This document shows, piece by piece, positions 5,137 to 6,382 of a stretch of DNA of 50,044 nt. The notes under the pieces are model-generated. The model worked only from the letters and a program-made list of their open reading frames with translations. It was not told the DNA's origin and made no database searches. Numbering within the stretch: the stretch's first letter is position 1; each line of letters begins with the position of its first letter. The stretch comes from Chitinophagaceae bacterium (GTDB lineage: Bacteria; Bacteroidota; Bacteroidia; Chitinophagales; Chitinophagaceae), in NCBI GenBank assembly GCA_022841365.1, contig JALHRP010000027.1:1-50044 (forward strand). Direction: 5' to 3'. The position numbers and the translations under genes were made by a program.

Positions 5137-5302
5137 ATCATGGCTAAAGCCATCCTCCATTCTCATACTTACCCCGGGCTAAAGCGCCGTGGTTATTAAT
5201 AAAAGAGTAAAATGCATGATAAGTAAGGATATGACTTTCTTATCCTAACCCCGACTTTCAAATCGGGGACGCCAATCAGCAAGCACCTGGCTTTGGCCAT
5301 GA
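5137..5302. repeat. Composite palindromic repeat unit A (REP/BIME-like)
   Basis: This unit of about 166 bases starts with the palindrome ATGGCTAAAGCCAT (5140-5153). It continues with an imperfect hairpin around CCCCGGGCTAAAGCGCCG (5172-5189) and a CCCCGA...TCGGGG hairpin (5249-5268). It ends with a degenerate inverse of the first motif (CTGGCTTTGGCCATG, near 5287-5301). The outer motifs are inverted relative to one another, so the unit is bounded like a small non-autonomous element. Copy A is more diverged than copy B. The region 5088-5901 has no gene. Confidence 0.8.
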
Positions 5303-5412
5303 CTTTATTGATTCACTATTATTTGTTGTATGCCAACTGAGTTATTTATAAAAATTAATACCTCGTGCAGTAAAATATCCTTACAAATACTTTATGATAA
5401 TCAGTAAATTTT

Positions 5413-5578
5413 TTCATGGCTAAAGCCTTTTACCCTCTTCACTTTTACCCCGGGCTAAAGCGCCGGGGTTAATAATTTAAGAGTAAAGCACATAATAAGT
5501 AAGGATATGACTTTCCTATCATAACCCCGACTTTTAAGTCGGGAATGAAAAAAAGGGTACTTGGCTTTAGCCATGACT
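5413..5578. repeat. Composite palindromic repeat unit B (REP/BIME-like)
   Basis: Same order and length as the unit at 5137. CATGGCTAAAGCC lies at 5415-5427, the hairpin with arms TTACCCCGG and CCGGGGTTAA at 5445-5472, CCGACTT/AAGTCGG at 5526-5543 and TGGCTTTAGCCATGA at 5562-5576. The hairpins are better conserved than in unit A. The segment between units A and B (about 5303-5412) is A/T-rich and unique. Confidence 0.82.
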
Positions 5579-5876
5579 TTATTATTCCGTTGTGAATAGT
5601 TGTATGTCACCTGAGTTATTCATGAGAGAATAAAGCCCATGATAGGATGGGATATGACTTTCTTATCTAACCCCGACTTTTAAGTCGGGGAATGAAACAA
5701 AGGGTACTTGGCTTTAGCCATGACTTTATTATTCCGTTGTGAATAGTTGTATGTCGCCTGAGTTATTCATGAGAGAATAAAGCCAATGATAGGATGCGAT
5801 ATGACTTTCTTATCATAACCCCGACTTTTAAGTCGGGGATTGAAACAAACGGTACTTGGCTTTAGCCATGACTTTT
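5504..5876. repeat. 147-bp tandem repeat, about 2.5 copies
   Basis: The segment beginning GATATGACTTT recurs at 5504, 5651 and 5798, exactly 147 bases apart, with few differences. Each copy holds a CCCCGACTT-TT-AAGTCGGGG hairpin (5671-5690 and 5819-5838 are perfect; the first copy is slightly decayed) and a TGGCTTTAGCCA palindrome (5709-5720, 5857-5868). The third copy stops about 25 bases before the transposase start codon. The near identity suggests recent duplication. Confidence 0.88.
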
Positions 5877-5901
5877 TGTATTTTGAATCAAATCATTAAT
5901 C

Positions 5902-6336
5902 ATGGCTTATGTAAAGGTTTTAATACACGCTGTTTGGGGCACTAAGAATCGTTACCCTTTCTTTGATAAAGAAATTAGATCATTTGTTTGGCAACACATG
6001 AAAGAGAATGCTCTGTTGAAAGGCATTTATATAGATGCTGTTGATGGTTATAGCGATCATGTTCATTGTTTGATGTATCTCAATACTGACATGAGCTTAG
6101 TCAAACATATTCAATTAGTAAAGGGTGAAAGTTCATTTTGGCTAAACAAAAGTGGACTATTGAAAAGCAAATTTGAATGGGCAGATAAATATTTTGCTGC
6201 TTCAGTAAGCGAAGAAAAAATTGGGATAGTAAGAAGTTATATTAACAAACAAGAAGAACATCATCAAAAAGTCACATTTCTTGAAGAGTACAACCACTTC
6301 CTGAGGCAATATGGCTTTGAGGAAGATCATGGCTAA
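5902..6336 (+). CDS. REP-associated Y1 (IS200-like, HUH) transposase
   Basis: The 144-residue protein belongs to the Y1_Tnp family: single-strand-specific HUH transposases with one catalytic tyrosine. Seen: the N-terminal block VKVLIHAVWGTKNRYPFF, the metal-binding HUH motif DHVHCLMYL (near residues 53-61), and a C-terminal helix RSYINKQEEHH whose tyrosine is the candidate nucleophile. Length fits RAYT-type proteins. There is no TnpB partner. It sits at the end of an array of hairpin repeats and has inverted copies of the same hairpins just downstream, the arrangement expected of a REP-associated transposase. Its start ATGGCT and its stop (in GGCTAAAGCC) both lie in copies of a repeat motif. 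It appears intact. Confidence 0.9.
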   Translation: MAYVKVLIHAVWGTKNRYPFFDKEIRSFVWQHMKENALLKGIYIDAVDGYSDHVHCLMYLNTDMSLVKHIQLVKGESSFWLNKSGLLKSKFEWADKYFAASVSEEKIGIVRSYINKQEEHHQKVTFLEEYNHFLRQYGFEEDHG

Positions 6337-6382
6337 AGCCAATCAACTAAATACTGTAACCCCGACTTAAAAGTCGGGGTTA
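6328..6382. repeat. Right-hand hairpin pair of the transposase element
   Basis: CATGGCTAAAGCCA (6328-6341) overlaps the end of the transposase gene, so the TAA stop lies inside the palindrome. Sixteen bases on is a perfect hairpin with arms TAACCCCGACTT and AAGTCGGGGTTA and loop AA (6357-6382). Together they are the mirror image of the hairpin pair on the left of the gene. The second hairpin could also terminate transcription weakly. Confidence 0.85.

Follow-up and report, generated by a model that had tools for sequence, protein, structure and literature searches.

A Y1 transposase-like gene of a Chitinophagaceae bacterium set between mirrored hairpins: a candidate REPtron-like system with an IS200-like enzyme

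What kind of genetic system is formed by a small Y1 transposase-like gene that lies between two mirrored pairs of hairpins? The stretch of DNA analysed here (the window) comprises 50,044 nucleotides (nt) and is an entire contig (JALHRP010000027.1, C27) of the 4.56-Mb, 326-contig assembly GCA_022841365.1 (G000) of a Chitinophagaceae bacterium. The gene in question (5902-6336, + strand) encodes a protein of 144 amino acids (aa) that matches Pfam Y1_Tnp at 7.2e-25. A preliminary description likened the locus to a REP-associated tyrosine transposase (RAYT; REP, repetitive extragenic palindrome) with bacterial interspersed mosaic elements (BIMEs). We conclude that it is probably a REPtron-like system of enzyme and substrate, based on an IS200-like Y1 enzyme of subclass 1.2 in the scheme of Quentin et al.

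Each side of the gene carries one long and one short hairpin. On the left the long hairpin H3 (CCCCGACT-TTTA-AGTCGGGG; CCCCGACTTTTAAGTCGGGG, 5819-5838, + strand) is followed by the short hairpin H1' (TTGGCTTTAGCCATGA, 5856-5871, core 5858-5870, - strand, with GGC-TTTA-GCC on the + strand). On the right the order is the mirror image, the short hairpin H1 (TCATGGCTAAAGCCAA, 6327-6342, core 6328-6340, + strand, GGC-TAAA-GCC) preceding an H3 with a TAAA loop (CCCCGACTTAAAAGTCGGGG, 6360-6379, + strand), so that the inverted order claimed in the preliminary description is borne out. The long hairpins were found by a long-palindrome pattern search and the short ones by a short-hairpin pattern search. 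The right-hand H1 overlaps the end of the gene, and its TAAA loop contains the TAA stop codon. The window stems continue 3' with GGGGAATG, GGGGATTG and GGGGTTAC or GGGGTTAT.

The enzyme belongs to the IS200 side of the Y1 family. Its HUH motif is H53-V-H55, the presumed catalytic residue is Y113, and the signature that contains it reads Y113-I-N-K-Q117-E-E-H120-H121. All six of the residues Y113, Q117, H120, H121, H53 and H55 are invariant in 18/18 aligned relatives, and Y113, Q117, H120, H121 and H55 in 54/54 of a larger alignment. The sections of Quentin et al. (2018; PMC6006769) drawn on here give subclass 1.2 the signature Y---Q--HH and the class 2 subclasses Y---NP, enter subclass 1.2 as REP 'no', and claim the first description of the subclass; the window protein and its kin share with it the motifs DH[VI]H and Y---Q--HH, a low copy number and an occurrence in Bacteroidetes. 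Judged by its signature and HUH motif, the window protein is thus a member of subclass 1.2, and not a canonical RAYT. The NCBIfam profiles agree, narrowly in one case: the IS200/IS605 model scores 58 bits (cut-off 55), and the model for REP-associated tyrosine transposases reaches 21.8 of the 80 bits set as its cut-off. For an AlphaFold model of the protein (predicted local distance difference test score 86.8) the top Foldseek match is ISDra2 TnpA (E 1.6e-8).

One alternative is a canonical RAYT of class 2 (TnpA_REP) whose REP/BIME repeats are of the usual GTAG type. It would show the same gross layout, with a single copy of the gene, inverted flanking repeats and gene-free copies, and the solved RAYT structure 4er8 is also matched by Foldseek (E 5.6e-5). 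The profile score and the Y---Q--HH signature, in place of Y---NP, speak against such an enzyme, as does the tree, in which two class-2-like genes of the same genome form a separate group (support 99/92). A third class-2-like gene (on C16) sits on a long branch at one of the deep forks, which lack resolution and carry flagged long branches; the tree omits one locus (L196), where the HUH pattern found no frame.

Could the gene instead be part of a subclass 1.1 insertion sequence of the ordinary IS200/IS605 kind, possibly in decay, with subterminal hairpins that were duplicated by chance? The IS200 model is over its cut-off, the closest solved structures are IS200/IS605 TnpA proteins, and the deep forks of the tree, taken alone, are compatible with this. 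The tree places four IS200/IS605 genes, taken from three plasmid records, in a separate group with support 95/94. The ends of IS200/IS605 elements carry hairpins on the same strand, whereas those at the window gene are mirrored. Nor does the gene behave as a multicopy element: at E<=1e-20 there is one gene in 14 of 20 genomes, two in four and three in two (20 of the 50 genomes used for the hairpin search described below), any additional copies being at most 63% identical to the query, and relatives turn up in only 5 of 72,556 plasmid records. The window genome has three Y---Q--HH genes, of which the other two are 35% and 26% identical to the window gene. No frame of tnpB size lies beside the window gene, as judged by frame size, no profile search having been made. 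With the fixed position of the gene between close genomes, given below, we regard the insertion-sequence explanation as unlikely.

If the hairpins belong with the enzyme, related genes should be expected to have hairpins of the same kind. We surveyed 112 loci encoding 110 distinct proteins, namely the window, 29 relatives, 80 named public contigs and the two other genes from the same genome. The public contigs, the best 80 of 405, are biased towards one query (A2), which includes umuDC-linked genes; in the search for relatives, 10 of the 39 matching rows outside the window were left unused. Two proteins are present twice (L088 = L065, L089 = L068) and three loci with less than 150 nt of flank were dropped, which leaves 109 usable and 107 distinct loci. 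Hairpins with arms of at least 7 bp flank 88 of the 107 within 200 nt on one or both sides, and 41 on both (90 and 43 of 109 with duplicates kept). Their density falls from 4.74 per kb in the first 100 nt to 2.44 at 100-200 nt, 0.55 at 300-500 nt and 0.05-0.13 beyond 1 kb. A TTYA or TRAA loop is present in 95/104 hairpins close to the gene, compared with 6/23 beyond 1 kb. With arms of at least 6 bp, the same 200 nt hold 187 hairpins in the 107 loci, against 2.2 expected from base shuffles; the centre is TTYA, TRAA or TTAA in 178 of them, and arm length peaks at 8 bp (108 of 187). The common design is thus a stem of free sequence, mostly of 8 bp, closed by a TTYA loop. Often a conserved short GGC-TTTA-GCC hairpin follows about 20 nt past the long one.

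The orientation of the hairpins is mirrored as well. For the hairpin nearest the gene the loop is TTYA rather than TRAA upstream (43 vs 12) and TRAA rather than TTYA downstream (68 vs 9; Fisher p=4e-15). When every hairpin is counted the bias weakens (upstream 32 vs 23, downstream 74 vs 33, p=0.001), because many flanks carry repeats both ways. A longest-common-substring test for mirrored flanks of at least 12 nt (own inverted 39/109, own direct 43/109) is weak, since palindromes match in either direction, and loop orientation was used in its place. The short core GGCTTTAGCC is found upstream in 48/107 loci (reverse form 20) and its mirror GGCTAAAGCC downstream in 66/107 (reverse form 30), compared with seven matches of either form in 96 pairs of control flanks 700 nt further out. 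As in the window, the stop codon falls inside a hairpin loop in 19/110 loci, compared with 6/5500 shuffled-arm controls.

Stable hairpins can end transcripts, and the palindromes might be host transcription terminators, or might stabilise mRNA, with no relation to the enzyme; six of the seven hairpin groups outside the window overlap no frame of at least 100 aa, as would suit such a role. Yet the loop sequence, the 8-bp arm, the mirrored orientation and a heptamer 5' of the stem are not traits of terminators, hairpin density drops off over the first 500 nt from the gene, and arm sequence tracks protein similarity (Mantel r 0.22; 0/2000 permutations as high, 85 loci). We rejected a terminator-only reading on loop, orientation and distance, and a host function of this kind is distinctly improbable. 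About as improbable is that the repeats are elements resembling miniature inverted-repeat transposable elements (MITEs), moved by another transposase, with the Y1 gene inserted or hitch-hiking. In the Cytophagales metagenome-assembled genome (MAG) G190 the similarity does extend some 80 nt past the long hairpin, by eye a MITE-like inverted element; against this, hairpins of the same design and different sequence flank the Y1 genes in the 88 distinct loci counted above.

The heptamer provides a further point of comparison with REP sequences. When 104 long hairpins are aligned on their TTYA strand, the seven bases directly 5' of the stem read T(.86)G(.53)A(.76)A(.67)T(.91)T(.65)G(.79). The 3' side shows weak A-richness only. 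Taking one flank per distinct arm (n=72), positions 1, 3, 5 and 7 are T in 57, A in 55, T in 61 and G in 56, and TGA[AC]TTG with at most one mismatch is found at 33 of the 72. The heptamer thus occupies the site where RAYT repeats carry GTAG, and GT[AG]G itself is found on the TTYA strand at 0/104 long and 1/154 short hairpin feet, and on the other strand at 1/104 long ones. On profile, motif and GTAG tests we rejected the filing as a canonical RAYT, which is very improbable. Of the RAYT/BIME-like label in the preliminary description, the Y1 enzyme, the mirrored flanks, the inverted units resembling BIMEs and REPINs (paired REPs) and the gene-free copies stand; the assignment to RAYTs does not.

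Gene-free copies are found both in the window and elsewhere in the genome. Five more half-units lie upstream of the enclosed gene, in an array of two fuller units (H1-H2 ... H3-H1') and one H3-H1' half-unit, before the half-unit that borders the gene. The two composite units noted in the preliminary description are present at about 5138-5303 and 5414-5576, and its extra hairpin copies at 5671-5722 and 5819-5870. Unit 1 consists of H1 (5139-5151, + strand), an imperfect long hairpin H2 (CCCCGGGC-TAAA-GCGCCGTGG, 5172-5192, + strand), H3 with one mismatch (5249-5268, + strand) and H1' with one mismatch (5289-5301, - strand); unit 2 of H1 (5415-5427, + strand), H2 (5448-5468, + strand), H3 with one mismatch (5525-5544, + strand) and H1' (5563-5575, - strand); and half-unit 3 of H3 with a TTTA loop (5671-5690, + strand) and H1' (5710-5722, - strand). 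The two H2 hairpins were read in the sequence, and the others come from the same pattern searches as those at the gene. A similar H1-H2-H3-H1' array lies near a contig end behind an aat-like gene in another genome of the genus (G009 C12:3580, L253), apparently the same as that of the window.

Allowing up to three mismatches, the long palindrome H3 occurs at 15 places in the genome, five in the window, eight on contig C32 and one each on C73 and C6, compared with none for a reversed-pattern control. The short hairpin CATGGCTAAAGCC (H1) has 15 exact places, six in the window and nine outside (25 if one mismatch is allowed, where the reversed control gives 2). Ten of the 15 long palindromes also lie outside the window, and so the hairpins are not confined to it. 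The match on C6 is probably a terminator; this palindrome (C6:28213), with the look of a plain terminator, and an exact H1 on C84, which looks like coding sequence, were not counted as elements and were left out of the comparison with frames of at least 100 aa, in which the seventh outside group overlaps a frame's end. On C32, three tandem units H3-H1'-H1-H3 have the layout of the gene flanks without the gene, and inverted repeat pairs form the basic unit at C32:40494-41022, C32:4773-4902 and, in a close genome (G012), C5:101800. The stems of the outside copies vary on both arms (CCCCGGCT/AGCCGGGG, CCCCAACT/AGTTGGGG), so that base pairing is kept.

The other Y1 genes of this genome have palindromes of their own. 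The two further Y---Q--HH genes, at C8:6905-7366 (L057) and C2:14898-15359 (L058, whose protein has HSH), are flanked by CCCCTTAGGGGCGACATAT and CCGTCCCTACGGGACGG, and by CTCCGTAGGAGCGATATG and its mirror form; some of these palindromes have 3-nt loops. On C25 (L197), C76 (L198) and C16 (L199) lie class-2-like Y1 genes or remnants that have NHxH motifs, with palindromes of another type nearby.

Do these units change over short times? Ten places were sought in either G000 or G012, whose Y1 gene is 95% identical; seven were found and three were not, and two (L054/L271, L243/L269) had one flank aligned and are uninformative. The gene locus is common to both genomes, as are the units on C3, C73 and C81. 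At C23:48800 a complete gene-free H3-H1'-H1-H3 unit is present in G012 and missing from G000; at C32:40494 there are three units in G000 against one in G012; at C32:4773 an extra stretch of about 770 bases in G012 contains at least one further unit; and two places hold in G000 either a degenerate hairpin or some other sequence where the unit would stand. Unit presence and copy number thus differ between the two genomes, through insertion or deletion alike as far as two genomes can tell, while the position of the gene is fixed.

Across a wider range of genomes, a CCTCCAG-type hairpin is present in 32 of 50 (reversed pattern in 0/50). Copies beyond 1 kb of the gene are found in 14 of the 24 genomes whose gene has this hairpin as its cognate and in 8 of the 26 without, a modest difference (p=0.019), and at least two of the loci classed as non-cognate (L136, L148) bear a near variant of it at the gene. 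G190 has 266 cognate hairpins, compared with none for the reversed control, together with a single gene at E<=1e-20. Across 20 stretches retrieved from this genome, TGAATTG stands at the foot of 24/26 copies, an exact short hairpin lies within 60 nt in 16/20 stretches, and all four inverted pairs less than 300 nt apart run TTTA then TAAA. G190 (L210, L211, L226, L227) and G009 (L068) also hold short head-to-tail copies of half a hairpin with its foot (about 21 and 19 nt), which look as if a hairpin had been cut near the loop and rejoined to the foot. Within the window's genus, exact H1 sequences number 15 in G000, 14 in G012, 5 in G009, 1 each in G003 and G010 (where the reversed control is also 1) and 0 in nine others; the 8 congeners with no gene match at E<=1e-20 have 2 in total. 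Copy numbers among genomes are uneven, and dispersal is therefore lineage-dependent.

Several observations weigh against a REPtron-like system built on this enzyme. At E<=0.01 the IS200/IS605 model is matched by 18/18 relatives and the REP-associated model by 17/18, with a best value of 3e-10. The strict two-hairpin half-unit is found on both sides in 8/107 loci and on at least one side in 40, with 48 flanks oriented as expected and 14 opposite, and 43/110 loci have no TRAA hairpin near the stop codon. Four loci (L079, L080, L084, L087) have no hairpin with arms of at least 7 bp in their flanks; their enzymes have possibly lost their repeats, and they share the same kind of neighbourhood, perhaps a chorismate mutase and an aroB gene. 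The heptamer fits poorly at the three long hairpins closest to the window gene, with agreement at 2, 2 and 3 of the 7 positions. Ten of the 24 cognate genomes lack copies more than 1 kb from the gene, and the eight non-cognate genomes have copies nonetheless; three congeners with a 52-56% identical gene have zero exact H1; and a hairpin of the umuDC lineage occurs at 8 places in 14 congeneric genomes, of which 5 are at the gene and one is in a gene-free genome.

How might such a system work? The parts of PMC8266576 that we used describe related Y1 enzymes that bind folded single-stranded hairpins and make a cut chosen by a guide beside the foot. By analogy, when DNA becomes single-stranded, as in the lagging-strand template or during repair, a half-unit would fold into the long hairpin (8-bp stem, TTYA loop) and the short GGC-TTTA-GCC hairpin. 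A dimer of the Y1 enzyme would recognise this fold by its near-invariant loop; the enzymes of many relatives may also read the TGAATTG-like stretch at the 5' foot, which would stand in for the tetranucleotide that serves as guide in IS200/IS605 and REP elements. Cutting and rejoining would then proceed through Y113. The mobile or amplifying unit would be two inverted half-units; the gene would stay put inside one such unit, while gene-free units spread or vary in number. The TTYA loop and foot heptamer are likely to form the readout, with the stem sequence free. With a free stem and a constant loop and foot, recognition by the enzyme would depend on shape and loop, and repeat families could thus diverge while keeping their enzyme. 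The locus may in this sense be the complete enzyme-plus-substrate system proposed in the preliminary description. More tentatively, and at somewhat less than even chances, the subclass 1.2 enzymes would form a second REP system that evolved separately and is widespread in Bacteroidota, its own code being made up of the heptamer, the variable 8-bp stem, the TTYA loop and the short GGC-TTTA-GCC hairpin.

The hairpin design shared with relatives in other genomes suggests that the REP-repeat systems, familiar from other bacteria, have a further branch not described before. The consulted sections of PMC6006769 describe subclass 1.2 without REPs, whereas the surveyed genes have hairpins in most loci; we read this as a revision of the subclass description, and not as grounds for excluding these proteins from it. 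As far as they are covered in the portions of PMC6006769 and PMC8266576 used here, RAYT/REP/BIME/REPIN systems are alike in having a low-copy Y1 gene between inverted palindromes, and intergenic dispersed repeats with inverted pairs as the basic unit. The window and its kin differ from them in the branch of the enzyme, the TGAATTG-like heptamer in place of GTAG, the perfect 8-bp stem, the near-invariant TTYA loop and the second, short hairpin. TIRYTs and their TIRtrons (Di Nocera et al. 2013; PMC3733652) likewise have Y1 genes flanked by non-GTAG inverted repeats, some of them self-complementary and forming moderate families as here. In the extracts of that paper used here they are described for RAYT-like genes, part of them with GGGGWSAS, which the window 3' flanks do not fit; this sets them apart by description and is a weak test. 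The IS200/IS605 TnpA proteins of IS608 and ISDra2 share the fold, the active-site residues and the recognition of single-stranded hairpins, according to the same portions of PMC6006769 and PMC8266576. We found no reports of repeats for subclass 1.2 in the open-licence literature, subscription papers being mostly outside the scope of the search. A Y1 lineage described as REP-free would thereby gain a likely substrate, with a compact and testable rule of loop, stem length and 5' heptamer. REP systems would extend to repeats missed by the classical GTAG rule, and there would be an independent case for how transposases become domesticated along with their repeats.

Two further features of the relatives concern their surroundings. 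A umuC-like gene lies downstream of the Y1 gene in 16/112 loci, or 15/110 distinct proteins (L062, L065-L067, L085, L088, L090-L094, L098, L102, L122, L144, L155), in a survey that leans towards such genes, and a umuD-like gene precedes the Y1 gene in all eight of these whose upstream side was read, both names being given from the sequence. A literature search on a Y1 gene in a umuDC-type operon found nothing. These genes, which place a single-strand-DNA enzyme within an apparent SOS operon, fall at no fewer than two places on the tree. Four relatives come from records titled outside Bacteroidota, three of them Acidobacteriota MAGs (L107, L111, L116) and one a Rickettsiales MAG (L112), and reflect either horizontal transfer or misplaced contigs.
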